Source: Rhodovulum marinum (GTDB lineage Bacteria > Pseudomonadota > Alphaproteobacteria > Rhodobacterales > Rhodobacteraceae). From it: a DNA stretch of 64,000 bases. The stretch is taken from positions 1 through 64,000 of the forward strand of contig NZ_SLXP01000017.1 of the NCBI RefSeq assembly GCF_004343075.1. The letters are read 5' to 3'. Made by a program: the position numbers and the translations under genes. The notes below the pieces were generated by a model. It was not told the DNA's origin. It saw nothing but the letters and a program-made list of their open reading frames with translations, and did no database searches. Below are positions 6,238-20,730 of the stretch, in pieces. How positions within the stretch are numbered: position 1 is the stretch's first letter; every line of letters starts with the position of its first letter.

Positions 6238-7509
6238 TTAGAATGAGCGCATTACGGAGCTTGATCTAATTAACGCATTCTGAGCAACAAACTGCATTAG
6301 GTCTACATACGCCCAAAGCTCTTCTTCAGCTTTTGAAAACGGCAACAGCATTTCCGAGCGGATATTGTCCACATCATTTTTTGTGTGAACAATTCTACAC
6401 CGGATATCATAGAGGAGCTCTGCAACATCAGGGCGATGATCGTGACCTTTGCGGCCTAGGTTGATTGTTTTGTCGGTTATACCTTTCTGTTTCTTACTGA
6501 CAATTTCCGCCACATCCGCATTCTCTTCAAAGTAGCGCAATACGTCGTCGAGTGTTATGACTTCGGATACGGTTGCCCTTATTTGCTCACGCTCACTGCC
6601 ACCAACACGGCCACTCCCTGCGATGGTTGAAACCAATTTGGTGAGATCAGACTCTCTGTCTACCCTAAAGTTTGGATGCTTCAAAATCTTGCGAACTCCA
6701 CGAATGGCCTCCAGTTTCGCAAAGTTTGGAAAGTAGTATTCGGCAACTTGGTAATATGCCAGGAACTGAAGTAGTGGCATACCACGCGCGCTCTTCGCAT
6801 ACCAATAGAGGGAGATCGGCGCAGTGTCATATTCGAAAGACGGAAACTGTAGAGCTGCAGCTTCCTTGGAGCTAAATCCTTTCCGTCGTAATCCCCGCCG
6901 CCTGCGAAAGGATTTGCGCAATGAAAGCGTAACATCTCTTTCTAGGTCGATTTGAAAAAATAGCGAGTTCGAAATTACCTCAAGCGCGCTGAGCGCGGAA
7001 CTGTAGCTCTGAGGCTCGTTGAGAAATATCTTAAGGCTTAGTGGTGCCCGACCGCCAGCCCTTGAGGAGAAGACACGAAGACTCTCGCTGCCTGCTGAAA
7101 TTTCAAGCTTAATCCCGCTGGAGGATTCTGCTTGTAGAGATAATCCTTGGTTCTCATCATCCTCAAGAGCACCTTCTACCCCAGAAGAAAAACCCAATCG
7201 CCGCTCGATCATTGAGATACCACCGAACGCATCTCGCGTCGTAAGGGCTGCTTCTATCTCACCTCGTTTGAGATCAGCAATCGCATCATAGTCACCAAGG
7301 AATGTGAAGCGCTCGAATTCAATCGATAGAATTTCTTTTGCTTGGTCTTGACTCGAAATTGGAATACGCCTTGGCTCCGCCCCTGCTGGCATAAGAATAT
7401 ATTGCGTCTTTATTATATCATCGACGTACTTTGTTTCCCGAATTTCGGTGCCAATACCGGCTTTATCGGCGCGTTGAGCTATCTCTTCAACTAAATCTGC
7501 GTCACTCAT
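6238..7509 (-). CDS. Hypothetical protein with C-terminal HEPN-like motif (423 aa)
   Basis: The start at 7509 (MSDADLVEE) has GGGGGA five bases upstream; an in-frame TTG at 7548 is less likely. The body is unknown: an N-terminal region of about 100 residues, a basic patch RKSFRRRRGLRRK near residue 210, and a tyrosine-rich helical part (LLQFLAYYQVAEYYF). The C terminus contains LLYDIRCRIVHTKND near residue 370, in which RCRIVH fits the R-x4-6-H active-site motif of HEPN ribonucleases, common in toxins and abortive-infection proteins. Base composition is clearly AT-richer than the flanking genes, pointing to separate acquisition. The domain call is moderate; no homologue search was possible. 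Confidence 0.6.
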   Translation of the reverse strand: MSDADLVEEIAQRADKAGIGTEIRETKYVDDIIKTQYILMPAGAEPRRIPISSQDQAKEILSIEFERFTFLGDYDAIADLKRGEIEAALTTRDAFGGISMIERRLGFSSGVEGALEDDENQGLSLQAESSSGIKLEISAGSESLRVFSSRAGGRAPLSLKIFLNEPQSYSSALSALEVISNSLFFQIDLERDVTLSLRKSFRRRRGLRRKGFSSKEAAALQFPSFEYDTAPISLYWYAKSARGMPLLQFLAYYQVAEYYFPNFAKLEAIRGVRKILKHPNFRVDRESDLTKLVSTIAGSGRVGGSEREQIRATVSEVITLDDVLRYFEENADVAEIVSKKQKGITDKTINLGRKGHDHRPDVAELLYDIRCRIVHTKNDVDNIRSEMLLPFSKAEEELWAYVDLMQFVAQNALIRSSSVMRSF

Positions 7510-7790
7510 AAAATCCCCCAGCGTGGTTGCTTGATAATCTTGCTGCAAGTGTCTATTCTTACATGGATAATGAAGCTGCGTCTATGCCTATGCGATGGCC
7601 TAATGGAGTGAATTCTCGCAGCTCGCAGGATTTGAGTGAGTATGAATTCTTCCTGCTCACAATCGACGGCATTGGGGTTAATATTATTCCAGTGCTGGGG
7701 TAAGGTTGCCGACCAGGCCTTTTACATCGGGCTTAATCCCTGCGAAGATGGTAGTACCAATCCGGCCCCGTTATCGTGAACCGCAAGATG

Positions 7791-8149: not shown

Positions 8150-8866
8150 CTATGCCATCTGACGTTCAAGTCTCAGCTTTCTCTTCTCCCAATCCGGCAT
8201 TACGCAACGCAAGAGATCGAAGAACTCCCGCCCGTGATGGGGGTGTTTGATATGGCAAAGCTCGTGGGTGATCACATAATCAATAGCCTCTGTAGAGGCC
8301 CCGATCAGCGCTCGGTTCAGCACCAAATTGTGCCGCCCTGTCATTGACCCCCACCGAAGGCTCAGCTCTCGAATGATGATGCTGTTCGGAACGACCTTCT
8401 CAGGGTCTGGAAAGCGCCCTCGACAGATGTGCAAACGCTCCGCGAATTTGATCTGGGCACGCTGCAACATCCAGTGTCGCACAAGCTCGCGGGTCTGGGT
8501 GGCGCGACCTGGCTTCGTACTCCAAACCACCAGCTGACCGCGCTGCATCTTGACGATGTTCTGTATGCCGGGGATCACCTTGAGTTTATATTGGCGACCC
8601 AAGTACAGGTGGGTCTCGCCACCGATATAGCGCCGTTCTGGCGTTTTGGGCTGGAACTGGTCGTAGTAGCGCAGCTGTTTGCAAATCCACGGCGCGCGTT
8701 TGCGCACCTTCTCGATGATACGTTCAGAGCTTGCGTCTTCGGGCGCGACAACCTCGACCTGCTGGTTGGGCAAGACACTGATCGACAGGGTTTTGCGAAT
8801 CCGCCTCACGACAGAAAAACGGATTGTCTCGCTGCCGAAGCTTGCCTCAAGAACCTCGGCACTCAT
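8150..8866 (-). CDS. YgjP-type (DUF45/M48-like) metallopeptidase of the restriction operon
   Basis: A 238-residue protein with the DUF45/YgjP signature: an N-terminal beta domain (RRIRKTLSISV), RWGSMTGRHNLVLN, then the zinc site ITHELCHIKHPHHGREFF near residue 199, which provides HExxH plus a downstream histidine. Genes of this family are often found next to type I restriction genes, although their role there is not established. The start overlaps the hsdR stop codon by four bases (ATGA), so it is the last gene of the operon and translationally coupled. It could process the restriction complex or an inhibitor of it; this is inference. Confidence 0.85.
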   Translation of the reverse strand: MSAEVLEASFGSETIRFSVVRRIRKTLSISVLPNQQVEVVAPEDASSERIIEKVRKRAPWICKQLRYYDQFQPKTPERRYIGGETHLYLGRQYKLKVIPGIQNIVKMQRGQLVVWSTKPGRATQTRELVRHWMLQRAQIKFAERLHICRGRFPDPEKVVPNSIIIRELSLRWGSMTGRHNLVLNRALIGASTEAIDYVITHELCHIKHPHHGREFFDLLRCVMPDWEKRKLRLERQMA

Positions 8867-11800
8867 CCGGGGAACCTCGCCCGCGCGATATCCATGATCT
8901 GCAGCTCGATGTCATCGAGAAGGTCGAGGGGAATGTCGATGCCCTTCTCGTCGCGCACGACATCAAAGAAGTAGTCGTCGATGGCGTTGCGCATGTTGTT
9001 CTGCGCCATCTCGTTCGACCAGACATCGACGATGTGGTGATCTTTGACGATCCCGATGATCGACTGTGCGACATCGGCTGTCACCGTATCCTCAACGCCG
9101 CTGTTGATCTCCTTCAGGATCGGCTCAAGGACGCCGAAGACAGCTTGAGCGTCCGTGTCGCCCTTGATGCTTTCCGGCATGTCTCGGCCATGATCACGGC
9201 GCGCAACGCGCCCCGCCAAATCCACGACCGTCTTGAGGTAATCCTTCTCCGAAATCCGCTTCTCGCGGTAATCGCGGATCGTCTCCGCCAGCATCTCAGA
9301 GAACTGCCTGTAGAAGGAAGGGTCTTCCTCCATCTTTTCCGTGATCGTGCGTTTGGTGGCGCTTGCAATGCGATCCGCCTTGGAAGCAGCGGTCGTGCCC
9401 TCTTCTTCGATCACGGCGTTAAGAGCGTCAGGATCGTTGATGTTCACCAGGTCGATGATCACCTCGGCAGGTTTTGCCGTGACATGATCGTCGAGCAACT
9501 TCTGAATCTTGGGCTCGAACTCTTTCACATCGACGGTTTCCTGATAGCGTAACTGAACGGAACGCTTCAGCTCTGAGAAGGCTTTCCAATCTTTCGTGAA
9601 GGTGGCGACCGCCGCCTCGTCGAACACGTCATAGAGCTTCTCGGAGGACAGCGAGATGTGCAAGCAGCGACCATAGTCCTTCAGTCGAGAGTAGAAGTCT
9701 TCCCGCTTGGCATCATCCGCCAAGAGCTGCTCGAACTGCTCCATGTCCTTCTTGTTGCGAACCTCCTTGAAGACATCCCAGAGCTGGTCGTGCAGCTGCG
9801 GCAGCCTGCGGATTTCCTCGCGAATGTCGTGCAGCGATCCGGCAACATCCTCACCGTCGAAACCCTCAAACGCGCTATAGGTCGTCAGTGCCGCGTCGAG
9901 CTCGCCAAGCAGCCCTTCATAATCGACGATGAAGCCGAACTGCTTCTCCTTGTCGTCGTCCTCATAGAGACGGTTCACGCGGGCAATGGCTTGAAGAAGA
10001 TTATGTTCCCGCAACGGCTTGCACACGTAGAGCACCGTGTTGCGCGGGGCGTCGAAGCCAGTCAGAAGCTTCGAGACGACAATCAGGATTTCAGGATCGC
10101 CTGAGCCCTTGAAGGCGTCGATGATCTGGCGATTGTACTCGTCCTCGGTTTTGTGCCTGGCCATCATCTTGTCCCAAAACTTGCGCACCAAGTCCTTGGA
10201 TTCCTGATCGACCTCCTCATTCCCTTCCTTGTCGTCAGGGGCGGAAATGATGATCTCGCTCGTCACGTGGCCTATCTCGTCGAGAACCTCCTTGAAGCGT
10301 ACGGCAGCGGCCTTTGAGGGTGCCACCAGTTGCGCCTTGAAACCCGTCCCCTGCCAATACTGGCGGAAGTGTTCTGAAATATCGAACGCCTTGGCGCGGA
10401 TGGCTTGGCTTGTCTTTGACAAGGCATCCATGCGCGAGAATTTTCGCTTAAGATCGGCTTTCTGCTTCTCCGTCAGTCCCTCGCTGATCTTGTCAAACCA
10501 GGTATCGACGACATCGCCGCTGACCTGCTGCTCAACCAAGCGTCCTTCGTAAAGCAAGGGGACAACAGCCTCGTCCTTCACTGCCTGATCAATCGTATAT
10601 TTGTGAATCAGCCCCCCGAAGGTATCGAGGGTGTTCTTGTCCTTCTTCAGAAGCGGTGTACCGGTGAAGCCGAGATAACAGGCGTTCGGCAAGATGCGCC
10701 GCATCTTCAAGGCAAACTTGCCGTGTCCGCCATAGCGGCCTGTCTGGCTGCGGTGGCTTTCATCGACGAGAACGAAGATGTCGGCGCTATCGTCCTTGAA
10801 GTCGCCCGCCTTCATGGCGGTATCGAACTTGTTGATGATCGTCGTGATCAACGGCGTGCGGTTTCTGATCAGCTCGATCAGATTTGCCCCCGTGGCTGCC
10901 CGCACGGGTTCAAGGTCGCAGGACTTGAAGGTGCCCTTGATCTGCTTGTCCAAGTCATCGCGATCCGTGACGATCAGGATACGGGCGTTCTTCACGTCTT
11001 TGTCGAGCGCAAGCGCCCGCCCAAGCATCACCATTGTTAGGCTCTTCCCTGAGCCTTGTGTGTGCCAGATCACGCCACCTTTGCGACGGCCTTCCAGATC
11101 AAAACCTTTCAGGCGGGCAAGAGCTATTCTGATGCTGAAGAATTGCTGATGGCGGGCGATCTTACGCACCCCTCCATCGAAAACCGTGAAACGGCGCACA
11201 AGGTCGAGAAGACGCTCCGGGCGGCACATCGCATAGATGGCGCGATCCTGCTCACTGATCGATCTCTCCCCTCCCGCAGCTAGCTCCTCGAAGAAGACGC
11301 GCGCATCGGCCAAGTCGCCCGAGAAGACAGCGTTCGTTTCCTCTGCCGTCAGAGGACGATTGATCGCGGCGGAGATATCCGCATCCTGATCGTCTTCGTC
11401 GCGCCAGATTTGCCAGAACTTGCGCGGAGTGCCCACGGTGGCATAGCGGGCTTCTTGCCGCTTCATGCTCATCAATAGCTGCGCGTAGTGGAAGAGCTGC
11501 GGGATGTTGTCTTCGTTCTGATACCCGATTAGCTGGCTGTCAGCTTTCTTGAGCGACTCCGTGGGACGCTTGTTCTCGATCACAATGAACGGAATGCCGT
11601 TTACGAAACAGACGATATCGCAGCGCCGTGTCGCGGTGCTCGCCGTCCGCTCGACACTCATCTCCGCCGTCACATGGAAGACGTTGTTTTCAGGTGTCTC
11701 CCAGTCGATGTACTTGAAGGAATAGCTCTTGCTGTCGCCCTCAATCGCCTTGGAGATCGTCGTGCCCAGAACCAAGAGATCATAGATATCCTGGTTCGTG

Positions 11801-12078
11801 CCCTTCAGCCCCTTGAGCTTGTCAGGGGTTGGTTTGAGGCGGTGCAGCGCCTCGTGGGCGTCTTCCAGGTCGAAGGAATAGCTCTTGCCGCGATAGCTGT
11901 AGCTGTTGAGCTTCAGCATCTGCTCGACAACGATGTCGTCGAGGATCACGCTGCGTGGTTTCCCCCGCAACTGATCGACCTTCACCTGTGATAACGGCTG
12001 GAAGCCAAGCGCCACGAGCGTCTGGATCGCAGGTATCTGGGATTGGTACTTTTCACTGGGATCAAAGCCATCAAGCAT
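8863..12078 (-). CDS. hsdR: Type I restriction enzyme R subunit
   Basis: A 1071-residue motor and nuclease subunit that translocates and cleaves unmodified DNA in the HsdR2M2S complex. The N-terminal PD-(D/E)XK nuclease is complete: Asp154 in RRCDIVCFV, Glu168 and Lys170 in VIENKRP, and the following Q…Y pair in SQLIGYQ. The SF2 helicase core has Walker A QGSGKS near residue 340 and a DESH box (VDESHRSQTG) near 438, with later helicase motifs including LLTGFDAP and AIARVNR. The start overlaps the DUF6119 gene by eight bases and the end overlaps the peptidase gene by four. Length and motifs look intact. Confidence 0.97.
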   Translation of the reverse strand: MLDGFDPSEKYQSQIPAIQTLVALGFQPLSQVKVDQLRGKPRSVILDDIVVEQMLKLNSYSYRGKSYSFDLEDAHEALHRLKPTPDKLKGLKGTNQDIYDLLVLGTTISKAIEGDSKSYSFKYIDWETPENNVFHVTAEMSVERTASTATRRCDIVCFVNGIPFIVIENKRPTESLKKADSQLIGYQNEDNIPQLFHYAQLLMSMKRQEARYATVGTPRKFWQIWRDEDDQDADISAAINRPLTAEETNAVFSGDLADARVFFEELAAGGERSISEQDRAIYAMCRPERLLDLVRRFTVFDGGVRKIARHQQFFSIRIALARLKGFDLEGRRKGGVIWHTQGSGKSLTMVMLGRALALDKDVKNARILIVTDRDDLDKQIKGTFKSCDLEPVRAATGANLIELIRNRTPLITTIINKFDTAMKAGDFKDDSADIFVLVDESHRSQTGRYGGHGKFALKMRRILPNACYLGFTGTPLLKKDKNTLDTFGGLIHKYTIDQAVKDEAVVPLLYEGRLVEQQVSGDVVDTWFDKISEGLTEKQKADLKRKFSRMDALSKTSQAIRAKAFDISEHFRQYWQGTGFKAQLVAPSKAAAVRFKEVLDEIGHVTSEIIISAPDDKEGNEEVDQESKDLVRKFWDKMMARHKTEDEYNRQIIDAFKGSGDPEILIVVSKLLTGFDAPRNTVLYVCKPLREHNLLQAIARVNRLYEDDDKEKQFGFIVDYEGLLGELDAALTTYSAFEGFDGEDVAGSLHDIREEIRRLPQLHDQLWDVFKEVRNKKDMEQFEQLLADDAKREDFYSRLKDYGRCLHISLSSEKLYDVFDEAAVATFTKDWKAFSELKRSVQLRYQETVDVKEFEPKIQKLLDDHVTAKPAEVIIDLVNINDPDALNAVIEEEGTTAASKADRIASATKRTITEKMEEDPSFYRQFSEMLAETIRDYREKRISEKDYLKTVVDLAGRVARRDHGRDMPESIKGDTDAQAVFGVLEPILKEINSGVEDTVTADVAQSIIGIVKDHHIVDVWSNEMAQNNMRNAIDDYFFDVVRDEKGIDIPLDLLDDIELQIMDIARARFPG

Positions 12079-13738
12079 CGAGAGTCTCCTCGATTACTTC
12101 GCTCACCTCGTCACTCTTCGTCGCTTTCTTCTTCTTCACACCAACCGCCGCTGGTTTTTTAATCCAAGCAAACTCATAGCTATAACCCAGGGCTTTCAGC
12201 TCTCGCGCTGCTTGGCGCAGCGTGATCATACTAAAGAATGGGAGCTTGGGGCTGTCGCCAGTGCCAATTACGGCATAAACGACCGTGAAATCCTGAGGGC
12301 GGAAATCCTCGCCGTCCGCGCAAATTATCGTTTCAAAGCCTGTCTGTCCCGTCTCAGCCTGTATGACACCCACTTTCTCACGGGTCTTATCACGGCATGG
12401 ACCATCAAGGATGAGCACCCGACCTGAAACGGTGCCCTGGTTAAATAGATGGCTCAACCGTGAAGAGGATGTCTTATCTTTTACGTGGATCAGTCTGTTG
12501 TCTTTGCTCAAGAAATCGCAAATTTCAATCGTGGTCGCTGAGCCCGTGGGCTTCACCAGCTGCGCGTCTAGGCAAAGTAGATCAGGTTCTTCGATCTTGA
12601 GCCGCGCATTGTACTTCTGCTCGTTCTCCTCAGCCTTCGCTTCCGGCAGATCATACCGATCCAGCTTGTCGAAGAACTCTTGAACCTGTTTGGCGAGATC
12701 GCTTTCAACCTCGTACCATCGTCCGCCAGATAGTACATAGGTGCGACCGTCTATCTCGACTTCGCAGACCAAACACTCAGAGATTTTCCACTTGCCACCG
12801 CAATCGCGGCCTTCGTCATCGACTTCGTGCACGGTGTGGCCATTAAAATCGTCGAGCCCATAGTCAGTCTTGCCGCGCTCCTGGAGGGCTTCAAGATATC
12901 CGGAAAGGTCTAGGTCGGGATAAATCTGACTGCTGCGAAATCCCTTGTAGCGCAGCTGATTGCTTTTCTCAGGATCGTATATGACCGGAAAGGCAAGGTG
13001 GAGGCCTTCTGGGTCACCGCCTTTCACGGCGCCGTCAATACACGCGACCGCTTCGGCATTCAGCTTCTCAATGAGCTCGTTCTCGCGGACATGCTTGATC
13101 TGGTCGATCCATGCAAAATGCTCTTTGTAATCCTCTTTCTGGTAAACCGAATAGGCCTCGGCGCAGGCCGTGGAGAGGTCGGCCACTGTCATCTTGCGGT
13201 CCATCGAGAGAGCATCTGTTCCAGCCACGCGTGACGCGAAGGTCTTGTCCTTGGGCGTCCCCGCCAGACCACGCACGATGTCCCGTTCCACATCGATTAG
13301 AAAGGCTGTTTGGTCCGATCCACGGCTTGTCTGACTGCGGCGGGACAGCGTGTTTTCGTCTGGGGTGCGGACGTCAGCGCTCTTGAGTTGATTTGGATCG
13401 ACAGAGTTCAGCACGACACGCAGCCCGAAATCCTGTTCGAACTTCGCCGGATCAAGCTTCACATGCCCCATACCGAAGGAGACGGCGAACCATCGACCAG
13501 CGGCTTGAACAAAGACAAGCCCATACGCGGTGTTGTTGTAGAGCTTTTTTTTCTGCTCGTCAGAAAGCTCTAAGAACTTTGACCACTTCGGCGGGTTGCC
13601 CCCCATAGTTTCGAGAGCGATGAGCGCGCCCTCTAGCTTGTCCCAGGCGTCCAATTCCACGCCATCGCGCAGTCCATCTTTTGGCGCAAGGCCATGTTTA
13701 AGAAGTCGGATCGATAGTTTTTGTGTGTTCCCCTTCAT
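12071..13738 (-). CDS. DUF6119 / TIGR04141 sporadically distributed protein
   Basis: A 555-residue protein whose sequence fits the DUF6119 (TIGR04141) family, known to occur patchily among bacteria and often inside restriction loci. Family-typical segments are AYGLVFVQAAGRWFAVSFG, GHVKLDP, FEQDFGLRVVLNSVDP and the LSRRSQTSRGSDQ stretch (residues about 70-150). The C terminus is a lysine-rich tail. It is flanked by hsdS (four-base overlap) and hsdR (eight-base overlap), so it is built into the operon rather than inserted by chance. Biochemical function is unknown; a nuclease-like fold has been suspected for the family, but I see no clear catalytic motif here. Confidence 0.85.
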   Translation of the reverse strand: MKGNTQKLSIRLLKHGLAPKDGLRDGVELDAWDKLEGALIALETMGGNPPKWSKFLELSDEQKKKLYNNTAYGLVFVQAAGRWFAVSFGMGHVKLDPAKFEQDFGLRVVLNSVDPNQLKSADVRTPDENTLSRRSQTSRGSDQTAFLIDVERDIVRGLAGTPKDKTFASRVAGTDALSMDRKMTVADLSTACAEAYSVYQKEDYKEHFAWIDQIKHVRENELIEKLNAEAVACIDGAVKGGDPEGLHLAFPVIYDPEKSNQLRYKGFRSSQIYPDLDLSGYLEALQERGKTDYGLDDFNGHTVHEVDDEGRDCGGKWKISECLVCEVEIDGRTYVLSGGRWYEVESDLAKQVQEFFDKLDRYDLPEAKAEENEQKYNARLKIEEPDLLCLDAQLVKPTGSATTIEICDFLSKDNRLIHVKDKTSSSRLSHLFNQGTVSGRVLILDGPCRDKTREKVGVIQAETGQTGFETIICADGEDFRPQDFTVVYAVIGTGDSPKLPFFSMITLRQAARELKALGYSYEFAWIKKPAAVGVKKKKATKSDEVSEVIEETLDA

Positions 13739-14967
13739 GCCGCTGCCTCCTCATCGTCCGAGACCTCGACACGCCATTCGCCCGTCAGGAGCTTCTGCAT
13801 CAGACCACGCTTCTGGTCAGTCAGGGCAGCAATCTCCTCGTCCAGTAGCGACAGCTCCCGCTTGGCTTCCGTCAGAGCTTGTGCAATCCGCTTCTGTTCT
13901 TCGGTGGGCGGAACCGGCACTCGACAACTGAAGAAGTCGTCAGAGTAGAGGTTGAGCAAGCCATCGTTGCGAACACCCGAATTGATCAGGCGCGAGAGCT
14001 GATGGTTCAGCGCGCCTGCGGAGAAGAGGTGGTCATAGAACTCAGGGTCAAGACCGGGCTTCAGAGCAAAGCAATAATAGACGAACGGAACAAGCGCCGT
14101 GTCACGGTCAAGCCGGAACACGCAGCCATAGGGGGCAGTCTTTGAGTTGCCTTTATTGTAGGCGAACTCACCCTCATGAAGGAGCGTGTAGCGTTCGACG
14201 CTGCGCCCCGCCATGTCTCGCGCAAACTTGTCGGCTTGCATAAGGAAACCGGACTTCGCCGAGATTGTCATAACGGGATGATCGCCGCCCGAACTCTTTC
14301 GCTTAACTGGCATACAGACCTTGGAGAGCGGTTTCTGTTGCCAATGTTCTGGGAAAATCCCTCCACGCCCAATCGTTGTTTGCGAAAGGCCATCGAGCCA
14401 CCGCGCCTTCTCTGTCCGCAAGGAGTTGAGCTTTTCGAGTGCCTCGTCCCAGGTCCGCAGGATCGCTGCGATCTTTCGTTGTTCTGGCAGCGGTGGAAGC
14501 GGGATACTGAATTTCTCCAAATCAGCAAGGTTCAATCCTGGCTGGGCTCCGCCCTTCTGGTAGCGATAAACCTCTCGTTGGCCGAGCGCGGAACGCAGAA
14601 CCTGTTCAACAAACCCAGGTTCGGCCTTCTTAGGCTCAATCGCCACGCGCGCGGTGGTCTGAGTAATGTTAGCGCCTTCCAGCCAATCAGGAACAACAGC
14701 AACCGTGCCTGTGTTTGCGCCGACGATGGTAATCACCAAGTCCCCTGCACGCAGCTTGGAACGCTTGTAAGGCGCGTCAATTTCGGGCGTGACCCGTTTG
14801 AAGCCATCCAGATCGCGCCAGCCCGCCGAGTAATCGCGACCACGAACAAGAATTACACCGTCTTCAACGAACTGCCCTGGCTGCACGATACCGTAGGTGA
14901 TCTTGCGCCCCTTTTGCACAAGGCTGGACAAAGGAACTTGGCTGAACTCTTCACTATCTTCACGCAT
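13735..14967 (-). CDS. hsdS: Type I restriction enzyme specificity (S) subunit
   Basis: A 410-residue subunit with two target-recognition domains, which set the bipartite DNA site. TRD1 spans about 1-165, ending in SIPLPPLPEQRKIAAIL, and TRD2 about 205-370, ending in CRVPVPPTEEQKRIAQAL. Each is followed by a coiled-coil spacer. These paired PLPP…EQ motifs are the family hallmark. I chose the ATG at 14967 (MREDSEEF), which overlaps the hsdM stop; a TTG one codon earlier is possible. It shares the operon with a second, single-TRD S-like gene at its head. Confidence 0.93.
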   Translation of the reverse strand: MREDSEEFSQVPLSSLVQKGRKITYGIVQPGQFVEDGVILVRGRDYSAGWRDLDGFKRVTPEIDAPYKRSKLRAGDLVITIVGANTGTVAVVPDWLEGANITQTTARVAIEPKKAEPGFVEQVLRSALGQREVYRYQKGGAQPGLNLADLEKFSIPLPPLPEQRKIAAILRTWDEALEKLNSLRTEKARWLDGLSQTTIGRGGIFPEHWQQKPLSKVCMPVKRKSSGGDHPVMTISAKSGFLMQADKFARDMAGRSVERYTLLHEGEFAYNKGNSKTAPYGCVFRLDRDTALVPFVYYCFALKPGLDPEFYDHLFSAGALNHQLSRLINSGVRNDGLLNLYSDDFFSCRVPVPPTEEQKRIAQALTEAKRELSLLDEEIAALTDQKRGLMQKLLTGEWRVEVSDDEEAAA

Positions 14968-16480
14968 CAATCCCGAGCTCCTTCAGATAGCCCGACATCT
15001 TCGCCCGCACGTCTGCCAGCTCGTTCTCAATCCGCACGATGTCCCTCTGCACGGCGGCAACGTCGATCTCTTCCTCCGGCTCGAAAGTGTCTACGTAGCG
15101 CGGGATGTTGAGGTTATAGCCGTTCTCGGCAATCTCATCGGTGGTGGCGAGGTGGGAGTACTTATCGACCTCGGCGCGGGCGCTGTAGGTGTCGAGCACC
15201 CGCTTGATGTGCGTGTCTTCGTCCATCACGTTCTGGGCTTTGCCAGGCGTGAACTCCTTGCTGGCGTCGATGAAGAGCACGTCCTTGCGATCTGCGTTCG
15301 CGCCCCCCTCTTCACGAGAGCGGTCGAACACTAGAATGGCAACGGGGATGCCCGTGGTGGTGAAAAGGTTCGCGGGCAGCCCGACAACCGCGTCGAGGAG
15401 GTTCTCCTCGATTAGCTGCTGGCGGATTTTGCCCTCTGCCCCACCCCGGAACAGAACGCCATGCGGAACGATTACCGCCACGCGGCCTGACTGGCGCTTG
15501 GCGATCTCGATCATGTGCGTGATGAAGGCATAATCGCCCTTGGACTTTGGCGGGATGCCCCGCCAGTAGCGATTGTACTGGTCTGTGTCCGCGCCATCCG
15601 CGCCCCACTTGTCGAGCGAGAACGGCGGGTTGGCGACAACGACATCGAATTTCTGAAGGTGATCGCCCTCGATCAGCGCGGGGCTGTTCAGGGTGTCGCA
15701 CCATTCGATGCGCGCGGCGTCCTTGGCGTGCAGGAACATGTTCATCCGCGCCAGAGCCCAGGTTGCGCCGTTCACTTCCTGCCCGTAGAGCGCGAAGTTG
15801 TCGGAGCCGACAGCCTCCGCCGCCTTGATCAGAAGCGAGCCGGAACCGCAGGCGGGGTCGCAGATTGTGTTGCCTTCCTTCGGCGCGGCAAGCTTTGCCA
15901 GCAAGCCCGAGACGGCTGCGGGGGTGTAGAACTCCCCTGCCTTCTTGCCCGCGTCTGAGGCGAAGCGCGAAATCAGGTAGATGTAGGTTTCCCCGATAAT
16001 GTCTTCCTTCACCCGCGACGGGCGCAAGTCGAGGGCGGGTTTATTGAAGTCTTCGAGGAGATTTTTCAGGCGGCGGTTGCGATCCTTGGTGCGGCCAAGA
16101 TTCGACTCCGAGTTGAAGTCGATGTTGCGGAACACGCCTTCGAGCTTGGAGCGGTTCTTGTCTTCGATGTCTTCGAGGGCGATGTTGATCAGCTCGCCAA
16201 TGTTCGGCTCATTGCGCTGCTCATAGAGGTCGTAGAAGCTCGCGCCTTCGGGCAGGTAGAAGCGCTCGCGCTCCATGCGGCGGCGGATGCGGACATCATC
16301 GTCACCATACTGCTTGCGGTAGGTCTCGAAGTGGTCGTTCCAGTTGTCCGTGATGTACTTCAGGAACAACATCACCAGAATGTAGTCCTTGTATTGCGCG
16401 GGATCGACCGCGCCCCGGAAGGTGTCGCAGGCAGCCCATGCTGCGTTGTTCACTTCCGCCTGTGTCAGTTTGTCGTTCAT
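14960..16480 (-). CDS. hsdM: Type I restriction enzyme methyltransferase (M) subunit
   Basis: A 506-residue N6-adenine methyltransferase that protects host DNA and is part of the restriction complex. The SAM-binding motif I is DPACGSGSLL near residue 210 and the catalytic motif IV is NPPFS near residue 285. The N-terminal helical domain (DTFRGAVDPAQYKDYILVMLFLKYI) and a C-terminal coiled coil for contact with HsdS are present. The ATG at 16480 follows AAGGA by seven bases; the TTG two codons earlier is less likely. It lies 59 bp behind the mini GIY-YIG gene and overlaps hsdS by eight bases. Confidence 0.96.
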   Translation of the reverse strand: MNDKLTQAEVNNAAWAACDTFRGAVDPAQYKDYILVMLFLKYITDNWNDHFETYRKQYGDDDVRIRRRMERERFYLPEGASFYDLYEQRNEPNIGELINIALEDIEDKNRSKLEGVFRNIDFNSESNLGRTKDRNRRLKNLLEDFNKPALDLRPSRVKEDIIGETYIYLISRFASDAGKKAGEFYTPAAVSGLLAKLAAPKEGNTICDPACGSGSLLIKAAEAVGSDNFALYGQEVNGATWALARMNMFLHAKDAARIEWCDTLNSPALIEGDHLQKFDVVVANPPFSLDKWGADGADTDQYNRYWRGIPPKSKGDYAFITHMIEIAKRQSGRVAVIVPHGVLFRGGAEGKIRQQLIEENLLDAVVGLPANLFTTTGIPVAILVFDRSREEGGANADRKDVLFIDASKEFTPGKAQNVMDEDTHIKRVLDTYSARAEVDKYSHLATTDEIAENGYNLNIPRYVDTFEPEEEIDVAAVQRDIVRIENELADVRAKMSGYLKELGIDA

Positions 16481-16539
16481 TTTCAAATCCTTTTGCTAAT
16501 CATTGTGGGGCAGGCACATGTCCTGCCCCAAACGCTTTC

Positions 16540-16845
16540 TCAAATTAATCCACAGGGCGGGTTGAACTGCGCGCGAAGCTCGCGTTCGATCAGTATCCGA
16601 TTGGGTGCATCTGCGTAGATAGCGGCGACAGACAGTTCCACGTGCCCCTGGCCGCGCCAGCATGGTGCGCGGTCGTGGTTCGAAACCCGTTCTCGAATGT
16701 TCTGGGACTCTCCGACATCGACCACGTTCCAAGTGGACGCAACGCTGCGCCGTCCAAGGATCACGTAGACGCCGGAGCGCGCCTGCAAGTTGTTTTCATT
16801 GCCGAAAGGGCCTTCGGCGTGGTAGCTTCCAATGTTGATGGACAT
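16540..16845 (-). CDS. Mini GIY-YIG domain protein in the restriction operon
   Basis: A 101-residue protein that is essentially one GIY-YIG-like domain. GVYVIL (about 25-30) supplies the first half of the signature and VVDVGESQNIRERVSNH (about 41-57) the second half plus the conserved arginine. A glutamate in ILIERELRAQFNPP near the C terminus fits the metal-binding acid. The ATG at 16845 has GAGGTG five bases upstream. Such a small protein may be a nuclease, or a DNA-binding helper that has lost part of its active site. Its place between the S-like gene and hsdM argues for a role linked to the restriction system, which is inference. Confidence 0.75.
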   Translation of the reverse strand: MSINIGSYHAEGPFGNENNLQARSGVYVILGRRSVASTWNVVDVGESQNIRERVSNHDRAPCWRGQGHVELSVAAIYADAPNRILIERELRAQFNPPCGLI

Positions 16846-16895
16846 TATTCACCTCATGAGTTTGTCCGTTGCACTTTGCCCGCTTCCGTCCAAGG

Positions 16896-17528
16896 TCAGC
16901 GGGCGACCTTATGCCCAGCTTCATTGCCGTGAAGCTGGGCGTTTCGCACCTGACGCAGCAGGGCGAAGCTCGTGAATTCTTCTTTCTTGGCAGCCAGTTC
17001 GCGCAGCAAGCCAGCTTCCTTCGCAGCTAGGCGGCTTACCTCGACAACCAGTTTCTGGGTGACAAGATCGGGGATGCTGACGGGCATCTTGTCCAGGCAA
17101 TCACGCGGGATCATCCTGAGCTTCGTGCCGCGCGCGCAAGAATCGAGATACCGCTGCGCCTCGGGCTGATTGATGAGCCACGCCAAGAAGTCAGGCAGCA
17201 CCAAATCCTTGTTTGCCCGAAGGATTATGAGGGGAAGGAGGGCGACCGCCTCTTCGTCAGTGTCGCCCACCACGACCATCGCCGTATTTTTGTCACCTCG
17301 GGAGCGGAACAAAACATCCCCAGCTCCAACCGCGTAGCGATCTAGCCTTCCTTCCAGCTTATAGCGTGAGGCGGCTGCCAGCGGGACTTCGAAGTCGCTC
17401 CGCAAATCACCCATCTGAAGGGCGGGGATGCCCCGCAAGCCGTCCTCCACGAGGGCAGAGCGAGCCGTGAAGCCGCTTTGGATGCCGCACACATCCGATA
17501 GTGTTTTGATTTCATGTCTGTAGGTCAT
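16896..17528 (-). CDS. Single-TRD S-like protein (half specificity subunit)
   Basis: A 210-residue protein with one target-recognition domain followed by a coiled coil. It has IKTLSDVCGIQSGFTARSAL at the start, GDVLFRSRGDKNTAMVV in the middle and SIPDLVTQKLVVEVSRLAAKEAGLLRELAAKKEEF at the end. It is half the length of a normal HsdS. An ATG at 17528 (MTYRHEIK) is preferred over an in-frame start at 17567, because a strong promoter (17535-17563) lies between them, giving a leaderless transcript. As the first gene of the operon it could form an alternative specificity by dimerising, or regulate. It may alternatively belong to the family of stand-alone restriction-associated S-like proteins. Confidence 0.75.
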   Translation of the reverse strand: MTYRHEIKTLSDVCGIQSGFTARSALVEDGLRGIPALQMGDLRSDFEVPLAAASRYKLEGRLDRYAVGAGDVLFRSRGDKNTAMVVVGDTDEEAVALLPLIILRANKDLVLPDFLAWLINQPEAQRYLDSCARGTKLRMIPRDCLDKMPVSIPDLVTQKLVVEVSRLAAKEAGLLRELAAKKEEFTSFALLRQVRNAQLHGNEAGHKVAR

Positions 17529-17534
17529 GCTCAA

Positions 17535-17563
17535 ACAATACAACCCAACCCGCAAGCTGTCAA
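17535..17563 (-). promoter_or_regulatory. Sigma-70 promoter of the type I restriction operon
   Basis: On the minus strand TTGACA (17558-17563, perfect -35) is separated by 17 bases from TATTGT (17535-17540, -10). The predicted start of transcription falls at about 17528, which is the A of the ATG of the S-like gene, so the message would be leaderless. All seven downstream genes are in the same direction with short gaps or overlaps. Confidence 0.7.
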
Positions 17564-18028
17564 GCAAAATAATTGCAGTAGGTTTGGCTACTGTTCCGTG
17601 TGGGGCTGAGGTGCCTTACTCGCCAGGCTTTCACGCCGGTTGCTAACAGGACACGATTACTCTCAAGCGAGGTCATGGCGCACCGCTTCGCGGCCGGGCT
17701 GTCGTGAACCGAGCCCGCCCGTGGCGGTCTCGGCCTAGTGGCTTCCATCCCTTGCGCGTTTCAGAACACGGCCAGCCCGTTCGGGCTGAAGGCTGAGTGC
17801 ATTTGTATGGGGTCTGCGACCCCCCAGACCATCAAGACCAAGCCCTTCGCATAGGCTGCGGGCGTGCCCGGCGGTATCCCCGACCTTCCTCCCTTCGTTT
17901 CTCTCCGGTCGTGCAGGCCGGGTGATCCCCCTCCGCCGGGCACGGTCTTGACGGCCATCCCCCCGCTCATTGGCGCGGGCCTAGTCCGGTTGCATGCGCA
18001 ACCGGCTTTCAAAGAAAGGAAAAAGCCA
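17564..18028. other. Hairpin-rich non-coding region between restriction operon and ardC
   Basis: No supported gene. Several strong inverted repeats occur: AGCCCG/CGGGCT (17774-17787), GGGGTC/GACCCC (17809-17823), a 12-base-pair long-range pair CGTGCCCGGCGG (17863-17874) with CCGCCGGGCACG (17933-17944), and the 20-base repeat at 17986-18005. Such folded sequence directly before an antirestriction gene is reminiscent of leading-region single-stranded promoters or of a transfer origin; this is inference. Confidence 0.5.
17986..18005. promoter_or_regulatory. 20-base inverted repeat in the ardC leader
   Basis: CCGGTTGC and GCAACCGG pair perfectly around ATGC, ending 23 bases before the ardC start codon and just before its AAGGA ribosome site. 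Its position suits an operator or a leader hairpin that controls ardC. Confidence 0.45.
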
Positions 18029-18940
18029 ATGAAACAAGACGTTTATCAGAAAGTGACCGACAAGATTGTGGCCGATCTTGAGAAAGGCGAACTGACTTGG
18101 CTCAAGCCATGGTCAGCGGGCAACACAGATGGCCGCATCATCAAACCCCTGCGGCACAACGGAGTGCCCTATAACGGTATCAATATCCTAATGCTGTGGG
18201 GCGCAGCCATGGAAGGCGGCTATCTCTCCCCTTACTGGATGACCTACAAGCAGGCCAAGGAGATGGGGGCGCATGTCCGAAAAGGCGAGCGTGGCAATCT
18301 GGTCGTCTATGCCAACACCATCACCAAGACCGAGGAACAGGACGACGGCAGCGAGGAAGAGCGCAGCATCCCTTTCATGAAGGGCTATAGCGTGTTCAAT
18401 GTCGAGCAGATCGAGGGCTTGCCCGAGCATTACTATGTGAAGCCCGAGCCCGTCATTGACCCCGCCGAGCGGAACGAGCGCGCAGATGCGTTCTTTGCCG
18501 CAACAGGCGCAGACATTCGCCATGGCGGGAATTCTGCCCATTATGCAGGCGGCAGCGATCATGTGCAGATGCCCGTTTTCGAGAGCTTCCACAGCCCCGA
18601 GGCCTATTATGCGACCTTGGCGCATGAGCTGACCCACTGGACGAAGCACGAAACCCGCCTTGCCCGTGACTTTGGCCGGAAACGCTGGGGCGACGAAGGC
18701 TATGCCCGCGAGGAACTGGTTGCCGAGCTGGGCGCGGCGTTCCTCTGTGCTGACCTTGCCTTGACCCCTGAGCCGGGCGAAGACCATGCCGCCTATATCC
18801 AGCACTGGCTGAAGGTCTTGAAGGACGACAAGCGGGCGATCTTCTCCGCAGCCGCACACGCCCAGCGTGCCGCCGATTATCTGCACGGGCTGCAACCCGT
18901 CATCGACAAGGACGACAGCAAGCAAGGGGTTGCCGCGTAA
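18029..18940 (+). CDS. ardC: ArdC-family antirestriction protein
   Basis: A 303-residue ArdC-like protein. Residues 1-125 are the ssDNA-binding N-terminal domain: YQKVTDKIVADLEKGELTWL, KPWSAGN, then NGINILMLWGA and KGERGNLVVYANT. The C-terminal domain is zincin-like, with LAHELTHWTKHETR near residue 199 and the third acidic ligand in REELVAELGAAFL near 229. Proteins of this family bind single-stranded DNA and protect incoming mobile DNA against restriction. The ATG at 18029 follows AAGGA. It is transcribed away from the restriction operon. Its stop codon sits in the loop of a terminator. Confidence 0.93.
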   Translation: MKQDVYQKVTDKIVADLEKGELTWLKPWSAGNTDGRIIKPLRHNGVPYNGINILMLWGAAMEGGYLSPYWMTYKQAKEMGAHVRKGERGNLVVYANTITKTEEQDDGSEEERSIPFMKGYSVFNVEQIEGLPEHYYVKPEPVIDPAERNERADAFFAATGADIRHGGNSAHYAGGSDHVQMPVFESFHSPEAYYATLAHELTHWTKHETRLARDFGRKRWGDEGYAREELVAELGAAFLCADLALTPEPGEDHAAYIQHWLKVLKDDKRAIFSAAAHAQRAADYLHGLQPVIDKDDSKQGVAA

Positions 18941-19212: not shown

Positions 19213-20730
19213 ATGGCACAAGATGTTCACACACTCCTTAAGTCCATCGGGCCGAGCTTAACATCTGACCTTATTGCGGAAATGGTGAAAGCTGGCGCGA
19301 GTGAGTCGGCCGCGCGCAAACGGGTCCAAAGAGAGCAAGAGAGCTTCGATGTGCAAAGGCTTGCGGGCTTGCGCTTCGAAAAAAACGCCCGCTTCATGTA
19401 TCTGGTGGACCAATATGGTACTTCGAAGTTCTGGCAACGATTTGATGACGCATGTCGTCGTGCGGGCAAGTCCTACTGGTCAACCATCGCGCTGCTGAAA
19501 GCTCGTGGAGGAGTTATCGCGCAAGACTTTTTTCCTATCGTTGCCGGAACGCCCCAAGCTCGCCAGAGGCAACTATCGCCCGACCGAATTTTTGAGCGAC
19601 TTCGTGCAATTAATGTCTTGGAAACCGTTGAGGACGATGGGCGCTCATATGTGCGGTTTCATCCTCTTTCCTACCCTCGTCAGAGTTTGGCAATGGTTCG
19701 AGCGGAGGAGATCGCAGAGAATATAGCATTACAAGGCATAAAGGATTGGGCTCGGCGCATTGGATTTGGTAGCTATGGGAAATTCGTGGTGCGAGGGGAC
19801 AACGCACCGTCAATAGTGTCAGGAATTCAATGGAGCATGACTGCACCGAGCTATATGAGGCCGTTGGTATCTTTCGATGGTGGAGCTGCTAAACCAGGAT
19901 TCTTTGTGTGTGATATTAACCTTCACGACGTGATCGGAGAGGAGGAAGCGCTCGCTTTTGTTAGAAAATGCGATCTTGCTGCGGCGCCCAAGAAAGTAGC
20001 GCCAATCATGCCAATGTTGGTGGCGCATGTTTTTTCTGCGGAAGCATTAAGTGTTTTGAGGTCAAAAGGTATTCTTGCCGTTACCCTGCAGAATCTCTTC
20101 GGAGAAGAACTGTCGGACGCATTAAGGGAGCTTGTTGTTATGTTGACCGACCTTGGCGCGCGCGCCGCAGCAAATCCAGAACATATTCGTAAGGTGATGA
20201 ATACACTTACGAAAATTGAGGGTGGCGCGGAAAATCTTCGAGGTGCGCTTTTTGAGCTAGTGGTTGGAAGTCTTGTGAAGGATGTTGAGGGAGGCTATTT
20301 GGTAACTGGCGAGCGCCGAACTGATTTACACACAGGCCGTAAGGCAGAGATTGATGTCCGTCTAGACCGAGGGGAAGACAAAGGTGTCCTCGTAATTGAA
20401 TGCAAGGCAAAAAAACCGGGTGCACGGGTGAGTGAGAGTGACGTAAAGAGGTGGTATGAAGACCGCGTTCCACTTATTTATTCCATGCTAACGACCGGTC
20501 GAGATGGCGATTTGGGTGCATATCGCTTTGAGCTTTGGACAAACGGATACTTTACTGACTCTGCAAAGGCTTGGTTCAAGAGGCAGAAACCTGCATTCGA
20601 CGGTTATTCTCTTGGGCTCAGAGATGGTACTGGACTGAAGGCATATGCACAGAGTGCAAGAAATCCTTCGTTGCGAGACACTCTCAATGAGCACTATTTT
20701 AGGAGTCCCGTAATGAAAGTCATAGCATAG
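19213..20730 (+). CDS. PD-(D/E)XK nuclease-like protein of unknown system (505 aa)
   Basis: I do not recognise the full-length family. The N terminus (about 1-50, LLKSIGPSLTSDLIAEMVKAGASESAARKRVQR) reads as a winged-helix or HTH domain. The C-terminal third holds a restriction-endonuclease fold: acidic residue in KAEIDVRLDRG near 379, and VLVIECKAKKPG with Glu and Lys near 395-397, fitting D…ExK, after a helix containing ENLRGALFELVVGSLV. Base composition is distinctly AT-rich against ardC and the conjugation genes. It stands alone between the ardC terminator and a convergent small gene. It is a good candidate for a single-gene defence nuclease; target and trigger are unknown. Confidence 0.65.
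   Translation: MAQDVHTLLKSIGPSLTSDLIAEMVKAGASESAARKRVQREQESFDVQRLAGLRFEKNARFMYLVDQYGTSKFWQRFDDACRRAGKSYWSTIALLKARGGVIAQDFFPIVAGTPQARQRQLSPDRIFERLRAINVLETVEDDGRSYVRFHPLSYPRQSLAMVRAEEIAENIALQGIKDWARRIGFGSYGKFVVRGDNAPSIVSGIQWSMTAPSYMRPLVSFDGGAAKPGFFVCDINLHDVIGEEEALAFVRKCDLAAAPKKVAPIMPMLVAHVFSAEALSVLRSKGILAVTLQNLFGEELSDALRELVVMLTDLGARAAANPEHIRKVMNTLTKIEGGAENLRGALFELVVGSLVKDVEGGYLVTGERRTDLHTGRKAEIDVRLDRGEDKGVLVIECKAKKPGARVSESDVKRWYEDRVPLIYSMLTTGRDGDLGAYRFELWTNGYFTDSAKAWFKRQKPAFDGYSLGLRDGTGLKAYAQSARNPSLRDTLNEHYFRSPVMKVIA

Follow-up and report, generated by a model that had tools for sequence, protein, structure and literature searches.

Sequence evidence for a fixed core and an exchangeable defence slot in a type I restriction-modification operon of Rhodovulum marinum

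Genes lodged between hsdS and hsdR, as with DarTG2, TgvAB and RloF, and an effector embedded in a type I locus, as with PrrC in EcoprrI, are already known. The RRDM island of enteropathogenic Escherichia coli has the order rptR-hsdM-hsdS-darTG2-hsdR-M48, and its authors, writing in 2025, call the hsdS-hsdR site a potential recombination hotspot (PMC12255303). TgvAB of Vibrio cholerae is described as a type IV-like restriction system (PMC11411939); a survey by Payne et al. (2024), cited here through the latter paper, reports defence genes embedded within multi-gene defence operons. The present study concerns a seven-gene operon in a 64,000-nucleotide stretch of Rhodovulum marinum DNA (contig NZ_SLXP01000017.1, positions 1 to 64,000), hereafter the window. 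We consider it, with a probability of roughly 0.75, to be a mobile type I restriction-modification operon made of a fixed core (a specificity half-subunit, or half-S, together with HsdM, HsdS, HsdR and a YgjP/SprT-type protease) and of an exchangeable defence slot between hsdS and hsdR. By sequence comparison, the core, the slot and the swapping are features of this operon family. Recombination at the slot borders would exchange whole cargo genes, as a rule preserving the overlap with hsdR. The present cargo, a DUF6119 gene, most likely encodes a defence protein that acts separately and has a nuclease domain of PD-(D/E)XK-like type; it would provide cover against phages able to evade or block the type I enzyme.

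The operon runs from position 17528 down to 8150. Its seven open reading frames (ORFs) are all present on the minus strand, with families matched, in the order given by an earlier note on this DNA: half-S (17528-16896), a mini GIY-YIG-fold protein of 101 residues (16845-16540), hsdM (16480-14960), hsdS (14967-13735), the slot with its DUF6119/TIGR04141 occupant (13738-12071), hsdR (12078-8863) and the YgjP/SprT-type zinc peptidase (8866-8150). The first product, called a single-TRD S-like protein in that note, does match 50 PADLOC specificity-subunit models at E 0.001, one target recognition domain (TRD) being covered among the matches listed; it has one TRD plus one helix, and Pfam and NCBIfam searches with it gave no match. 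HsdM, the putative DNA adenine methyltransferase subunit, carries an N6-methyltransferase domain with an NPPF motif (TIGR00497, 291.5 bits, cut-off 242.75), HsdS contains two TRDs with conserved regions (two Methylase_S stretches and a matching pattern of variable and conserved sequence), and the ATP-dependent restriction subunit HsdR combines a nuclease with an SF2 motor (TIGR00348, 457 bits; HSDR_N, SWI2_SNF2 and T1R_D3-like domains; E-N-K and DESH motifs). These matches identify a type I restriction-modification system, predicted to perform ATP-dependent restriction and methylation of a bipartite site. The DUF6119 assignment between S and R stands well above its cut-offs (513 bits against 27 and 450.5 bits against 35, nearly the full length being covered), and the YgjP-type peptidase call is backed by PF01863 (163 bits) and by HELCH as the HExxH motif; a search of PDB sequences with the latter protein at E 0.01 gave no match. 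The operon is not a MADS defence system by its models, MAD2 scoring 57.5 of 720 bits and MAD5 31.8 of 400 bits, both under cut-off. The 4-8 bp overlaps by which several genes had been said to be coupled occur at the M/S, S/DUF6119, DUF6119/R and R/YgjP junctions only; gaps of 50 bp (half-S/GIY) and 59 bp (GIY/M) separate the first three genes.

Relatives were collected from two directions. A profile scan of genome contigs with a DUF6119 alignment yielded 62 loci. Searches with hsdR alone gave 11 plasmid records at 60% identity or more, 10 of which (H1-H10) were analysed, and hits reaching E 1e-200 in 6 of 385 class genomes and 19 of 390 order genomes, the own genome counted; 18 genome regions were taken from the hsdR search, five matches of 40-42% identity (G731, G1137, G1023, G1259, G1144) being left out. 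A set of 20 operons was defined by an hsdR identity of at least 65% and the presence of both slot borders on the contig, which excludes a copy of L083 (L089), the cut or broken L093, L094, L097 and L099, and L095, L096 and L101, whose hsdR is more distant.

All 20 of these hsdR-selected operons contain half-S, M, S, YgjP and a filled slot, half-S being broken in one (L103, where half-S and M are each divided over two ORFs). The slot itself holds eight different cargo combinations: DUF6119 in six operons, DUF3800 in four, a small protein with a Ser/Thr kinase in four, Shedu with a HAD protein in two, and Shedu with DUF3800, HAD alone, DUF2188 with DUF4917, and Kiwa in one each. Five of these names were assigned by hand, from family matches in L085, L090 and L098 and from visible likeness to the L090 protein in L092 and L100. 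SduA, KwaA and KwaB match PADLOC models of known systems, as does AbiD in a more distant operon, and the DUF4917, DUF2188 and HAD cargo matches PADLOC candidate models. Among distant operons, the slot carries an AbiD-like gene (L104), DUF3800 with a small protein (L105, L101) or a small protein with a kinase (L106); it is empty in L095 (hsdR 51%), and in L096 it is a gap of about 400 bp with no ORF of 50 residues. The last cargo gene overlaps hsdR by 4 bp in nine of ten annotated plasmid operons, whatever the cargo (the exception is L081), and the overlap is thus a property of the slot and not of one long-standing partner.

Evidence of swapping comes from the way in which the genes diverge. 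Over 325 pairs formed by 25 slot loci and the window, pairs that are not independent, the rank correlation of pairwise identity is 0.96 between R and M, 0.94 between R and YgjP, 0.83 between R and half-S and 0.61 between R and S; it falls to 0.29 between R and DUF6119 and to 0.10 between S and DUF6119. Four loci (L042, L044, L045, L048) have M and R proteins 95-97% identical to those of the window and a DUF6119 protein that is only 32% identical. With these four and L076, the window shares DNA in blocks: up to the end of M, over the conserved regions in the middle and at the C-terminus of S, and onward from the first codons of R; both S TRDs and the cargo are replaced between the blocks, with breakpoints at gene borders. 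In 20-residue bins of HsdS, the TRDs are mostly 12-36% identical and the conserved regions 94-100%, so that both TRDs, like the cargo, are exchanged among near-identical operons. The clearest pair is L048, with DUF6119, and L076, with DUF3800: their DNA is 92% identical over 6.7 kb before S and 96% identical over 5.5 kb after the slot, while the S TRDs and the cargo differ, and the two loci share with the window the S-end sequence GCGGCATGA. L020 and L022 have in common only a 3,029-bp cassette, 96% identical and composed of a 446-residue gene and DUF6119, which lies inside the slot in L020 and is free-standing in L022. The 446-residue gene, which has no Pfam match, is paired with DUF6119 in L020 (8656-11684) and also in L019, L021, L022, L023, L025, L026 and L107, in the slot as well as free-standing; L024 has DUF6119 without this partner.

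Quick trees, with long or unresolved branches, tell a similar story. In the DUF6119 tree (79 rows) the slot label changes 8 times, at least 7 of these changes being forced by starred branches; shuffled labels give 25, and the slot members of the family therefore cluster. The hsdR tree (33 rows, nine occupant classes) requires at least 16 changes of occupant, where 8 is the minimum possible and shuffling gives a mean of 19.5, with none of 200 shuffles as low. Judged from these trees, turnover of the slot is fast, with some inheritance.

How do these results bear on the proposal, made in the earlier note, that the additional genes are long-term parts of the system and not passengers? For half-S and YgjP the proposal holds: both occur in 20 of 20 operons and their identity follows that of hsdR (0.83 and 0.94). 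HExxH is kept in all 61 loci with a YgjP match, copies counted, and one could envision, with somewhat adverse odds, that the protease limits the R subunit or trims damaged complexes. DUF6119, on the other hand, is by these comparisons exchangeable cargo and not a long-term part, being replaced by unrelated genes, and the mini GIY gene, present in 2 of the 20, lacks the support claimed for it. The overlap argument fails because the 4-bp overlap with hsdR occurs with whatever cargo is present. As to recurrence, the exact seven-gene order with mini GIY is found in 6 of the 62 DUF6119-selected loci (L014, L042, L044, L045, L048, L056), and so is not due to chance, although other genes replace DUF6119 in other relatives. 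In 25 of the 62 the operon reads half-S-M-S-DUF6119-R-YgjP, with DUF6119 immediately ahead of hsdR; some of these have one more gene, either at the M/S or at the S/DUF6119 junction.

The mini GIY-YIG call had been made from a motif, and the predicted structure (7 rows, mean pLDDT 81) backs it. Foldseek returns UvrC GIY-YIG domains with probability 1.00, albeit at E values of only 0.003-0.007 for the best five, and the top rows in VIA are GIY-YIG-type entries (Z 8.5, rmsd 2.5, 78 aligned); Pfam and NCBIfam searches, and a PDB sequence search at E 1, gave no match. Tyr27, Arg53, His57 and Glu87, the kinds of residue that serve catalysis in GIY-YIG nucleases, are kept in 10 of 10 rows (two of them from one genome), and the second tyrosine, that of the YIG element, is Asp in all ten, a departure from the nuclease motif. 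The model thus points to a GIY-YIG fold with uncertain catalysis, possibly an altered nuclease or a DNA-binding helper. Its gene is nearly confined to this operon (1 of 72,556 plasmid records; 3 of 390 order genomes, own genome counted, one of them at 39% identity) and ranks, from its distribution, as a rare accessory. Between M and S, RhuM is found in 7 of the 20 operons; the mini GIY gene of the two operons mentioned lies between half-S and M. The hsdM-hsdS junction is itself a second variable place, occupied by RhuM, by a GIY-YIG gene or by nothing (L077:4465-5490, L105:5371-6339), and a homologue of the GIY-YIG gene at this place encodes DUF4357 (L030:7807-8775). Further candidate defence genes sit in the slot at L076:8159-8998, L077:8150-8998 and L081:7301-8841 (DUF3800; a HAD-family gene, PADLOC candidate PDC-S34; a small protein with a kinase).

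What the DUF6119 protein does can be approached through its fold. In an AlphaFold2 model (42 rows, mean pLDDT 83.7), the order of elements in the C-terminal half fits an alpha-beta-beta-beta-alpha-beta core, and residues 369-530 resemble the core of PD-(D/E)XK nucleases. The nearest listed entries are HamA (Z 6.5, rmsd 4.4, 158 aligned) and EndoMS/NucS (Z 5.8-6.2, the best with rmsd 3.4 over 103 aligned), followed by two CdiA toxin domains (5.8 and 5.3), SfsA (5.3), and EcoT38I and SduA (4.5). Eleven listed entries reach Z 5.0 or more, of which seven are classed by us as PD-(D/E)XK and four are CD38; the CdiA domains and SfsA are among those we take to have this fold. E373, D391, E405, D408, K420, S425, S429, H430 and Q434 do not vary in any of the 42 rows. 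Several observations weigh against this interpretation. All Z values in VIA are below 8, a level that the tool calls common, and CD38, which is not a nuclease, scores 5.0-5.3 in its four entries. The position expected to read ExK reads His-x-Lys in 41 of 42 rows. Foldseek with the model returned no match at E 0.001 or below, comparison of the DUF6119 profile with four Shedu-type proteins found no relation (0.2% probability), and no model in PADLOC-DB 2.0.0 matches the protein. A viral fold search likewise gave none at E 0.001 or below, the best being a phage exonuclease at 0.048, and a PDB sequence search at E 1 gave no match. On balance the modelled C-terminal domain is likely, not proven, to have a PD-(D/E)XK-like fold; nuclease activity is somewhat favoured, and a role in defence is distinctly probable. 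The dN/dS ratio is 0.04-0.11 in six pairs, a seventh being saturated, which on these alignments places the gene under purifying selection.

The distribution of DUF6119 is sporadic: 11 of 398 phylum genomes and 3 of 295 family genomes, the own genome being included in both counts. In the 12 other genomes, where neighbours were sought by blastp with the window operon proteins only, one gene lies in the slot (L114), one at the end of an R-M-S operon (L111) and one beside a type I system (L113). The remaining nine have no M, S or R homologue directly adjoining, a fact that also tells against the proposed picture and leaves control of DUF6119 by the restriction-modification system without support. 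One of the free-standing genes (L122) has an M-like gene 5 kb away. Among selected loci, free-standing members occur near a SacI-type system (L051, L058), a CD-NTase (L052) and an ATPase protein that matches SduA below threshold (L059) and, on plasmids, near a NACHT protein (L108) and DUF3800 with Shedu (L109). The sole phage record with a relative is that of Pseudomonas phage vB_PaeS-D14B (BK061476.1, 38666-40060, 25% identity).

Two other explanations of the operon as a whole deserve consideration. All seven genes might form one co-evolved machine, with DUF6119 and mini GIY as subunits of the type I enzyme. Such a view would account for the tight packing with its 4-8 bp overlaps, for the identical order in six of 62 loci and for purifying selection on DUF6119, and it is very improbable all the same: DUF6119 divergence does not follow that of M, R and S, unrelated genes take the same place, mostly with the same overlap, L095 does without any slot gene, and mini GIY is present in just two of 20 operons. 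The idea that DUF6119 is the nuclease partner of the M/S complex was set aside too, since its divergence is unrelated to that of S (0.10). Alternatively, DUF6119 could be a guardian effector silenced by the type I complex and freed when a phage blocks it. PrrC, embedded in and silenced by EcoprrI, provides the precedent (PMC3874165, PMC12707154); the position between hsdS and hsdR is that of DarTG2 (PMC12255303), and most cargo overlaps hsdR by 4 bp. DUF6119 often has no neighbouring type I system, however, and its divergence, nearly unrelated to that of S, M and R, makes a specific silencing interface unlikely. Moreover the embedded pair TgvAB still gave protection in the absence of the restriction genes, although the complete cluster protected better (PMC11411939). 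Control of the cargo by the state of the restriction-modification enzyme, as with PrrC, is unlikely, and we give the guardian effector the same low standing. We prefer the exchangeable slot, to which L014 runs counter in one respect: its S TRDs differ from those of the window while the window's DUF6119 is kept, so cargo is not always exchanged.

A different question is raised by half-S. Across 33 operons (hsdR about 65% or more, including L029, whose hsdR is split, and omitting L103 with its broken half-S), mean pairwise identity of the TRD is 49% in half-S, compared with 20% and 33% for the two in HsdS. Unlike HsdS, half-S retains a single type of TRD; it probably serves the core as a regulator or as a second specificity, rather than being cargo. 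A promoter-like sequence, TTGACA-17-TATTGT (17535-17563, minus strand), ends 6 nt before the half-S ATG, so that the transcript is possibly leaderless. It is the best of three promoter matches (10/12); this score alone is weak, since shuffles average 3.4 such matches, and the support lies in its position and in a TTGAC kept at a like place in relatives. Twelve base pairs upstream of the -35 hexamer is a candidate operator, CAGTA-gccaaacc-TACTG (17576-17593, strand not assigned). In 29 of the 33 operons, window included, the 130 bp that immediately precede half-S contain the general form CWGTA-N7/8-TACWG, with 45 sites in all; L039, L045, L048 and L076 have no exact site. Spacers of 3-12 were tried and only 7 and 8 occur; shuffles give a mean of 0.10 sites and a maximum of 2, a test that is descriptive as the motif was derived from the same sequences. 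The arms are constant while the spacers vary, and shared descent alone is therefore insufficient to explain the site. Two exact copies are present in 16 operons, for the most part around -86 and -28.

The N8 form, CWGTAN8TACWG, has a single match in the window and in the 3.95-Mb genome. Shuffles of the window average 0.03 such sites, about two when scaled to the genome, and the rarity thus reflects composition; the site is still private to this operon. Elsewhere, the 33 loci contain 6 sites over 685 kb, distributed over 6 loci (a count that gives 47 sites upstream, by start position). From a like distance to half-S and sequence likeness, these six are probably one homologous place in hsdM kept by coding constraint. 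The copy inside the window's hsdM, CAGTA-N7-TACTG at 15564-15580, has counterparts at a like place in five near relatives and probably reflects a constraint on a Q-Y-x-R-Y stretch. Two rules that seemed attractive were abandoned. A spacer constant within each operon describes 16 of 16 operons with two exact sites and fails once one mismatch is allowed (L050, L068, L090, L092; in L039 both sites are inexact). In EcoR124 variants helix length changes with the spacer, but the half-S alignment contains no indel that could go with 7- or 8-bp spacers, and L087 and L090 contradict the idea.

Other half-S clades have repeats of their own. In a second clade TATGAG-N5-CTCATA stands near -60, exact in L019, L020 and L024 and with one mismatch in L027; it is absent in L023, where the region taken is probably inside the gene itself. 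In a third clade AGTTNGA-N7-TCNAACT is found near -60, exact in L030, L031 and L105, with one mismatch in L106 and two in L033, and not in L032; exact copies near -10 are present in L030-L033 and L106. Neither repeat was found, at one mismatch or fewer, in 34 first-clade operons, and the CWGTA motif occurs in 1 of 16 operons outside the first clade (L095). LexA, with its site CTGT-N8-ACAG, was set aside as the reader, the spacing here being 9-10 in the same register and the repeats of the other clades unrelated. The half-sites contain an adenine, and by our own count the interval from one A to the other measures 7 or 8 bp in each of the three clades. This is near the geometry of type I sites, the interval in EcoKI and EcoBI being 8 (PMC3874165).

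It is tempting to speculate that a complex of HsdM and two half-S subunits reads, and perhaps methylates, this inverted repeat as its own operator, tying transcription of the restriction genes and slot cargo to the level of methyltransferase, for instance when the operon enters a new host. The reader of a constant operator should itself be constant. S, being swapped, and the optional mini GIY, RhuM and cargo genes do not qualify; among the constant genes, half-S, with M, is the one that seems suited to a split inverted site, which is why we propose it as the reader. Such a methylation-sensitive autoregulator, suggested by sequence patterns, must be called doubtful: half-S proteins that are close relatives occur with either spacer length, 7 or 8 bp, and M and R co-vary with the clade too. 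Half-S may instead be an alternative specificity subunit, two copies of which with two M subunits recognise a palindromic site as a second restriction target. Its single TRD and helix would suit this role, its divergence tracks that of M (0.83), and EcoDXXI delta-C is listed with the symmetric site TCA N8 TGA (PMC3874165); against it, the half-S TRD is not swapped as those of HsdS are, unlike an arms-race specificity, and the adjoining palindrome is single in the genome. This alternative is a little less doubtful than autoregulation. A shade more plausible again, at somewhat under even odds, is that a regulator of the host or of a plasmid, with no relation to half-S, reads the repeat. Helix-turn-helix dimers commonly bind inverted repeats, and the half-S proteins of L087 and L090 are about 89% identical yet have 7- versus 8-bp spacers at the downstream site, which would be odd for a rigid S-type dimer. 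An outside regulator is harder to reconcile with a repeat that varies by half-S clade and that recurs in several orders, on plasmids as well as on chromosomes, amid differing neighbours; no recurring regulator gene was seen beside the annotated operons.

The window also encodes a conjugative coupling protein and two serine recombinases, so the operon is probably in mobile DNA. Divergent from it is an ArdC-type antirestriction gene (17864-18940, plus strand; ArdcN and zincin domains), and a zincin-like metallopeptidase gene precedes half-S on a Sulfitobacter plasmid (L076). Farther along, a 505-residue protein (19213-20730, plus strand) has a C-terminal ID-V-...-VIECK that looks by eye like a PD-(D/E)XK nuclease, with no Pfam, NCBIfam or PADLOC match at E 0.001. 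On the other side, a 436-residue protein (6238-7548, minus strand) adjoining the operon matches PADLOC DzbB weakly (E 9e-8).

In the literature, with bioRxiv outside the scope, a search by family name found DUF6119 only in a wheat MADS-box study, among the domains in one gene; TIGR04141, type I restriction-modification together with YgjP, and the combination of half-subunit, GIY and peptidase were not found. DUF6119 as cargo, and the range of swapping within one operon family with natural swap pairs, appear to be new. So does an operator at the half-S promoter, with the qualification that the literature searches were not aimed at operators of type I operons; to our knowledge, no type I specificity half-subunit has been described as a transcription regulator. 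Core and cargo can thus be told apart in one restriction operon family, and the gap between hsdS and hsdR becomes a source of defence genes that have received little description, with DUF6119, DUF3800, HAD and the kinase pair as direct candidates. Natural swap pairs with near-identical flanks permit clean tests. If half-S does read the operator, this would point to a way in which mobile type I operons spare the hosts they enter, and to a function for half-S genes.

Among described systems, Shedu (SduA) and Kiwa occupy the same slot in relatives, and of the folds listed Hachiman HamA and NucS/EndoMS come closest to the DUF6119 C-terminus, although no homology of any of these to DUF6119 was found at the sequence level (PDB sequences; Shedu profile). 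EcoprrI resembles the present operon in carrying an extra effector gene, PrrC (PMC3874165, PMC12707154). DUF6119 differs in matching only its own family models, DUF6119/TIGR04141, at E 0.001, and none of the ATPase and anticodon nuclease domains of the PrrC type, and in standing often without a neighbouring type I system. TgvAB, and RloF of Campylobacter cited with it, likewise lie between hsdR and hsdS; they belong to other protein families, and the accessible part of that account mentions neither a half-S nor a protease (PMC11411939). The closest likeness is to the RRDM island, in which cargo lies between hsdS and hsdR, a metallopeptidase gene follows hsdR and a small first gene stands at the promoter (PMC12255303). 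The cargo there is darTG2, whereas here it is DUF6119, with seven other combinations in the 20 relatives, and the first gene there encodes the repressor RptR, whereas here it encodes half-S and no RptR. Even so, RptR offers a known parallel for the autoregulation by a first gene that we tentatively propose for half-S (PMC12255303).

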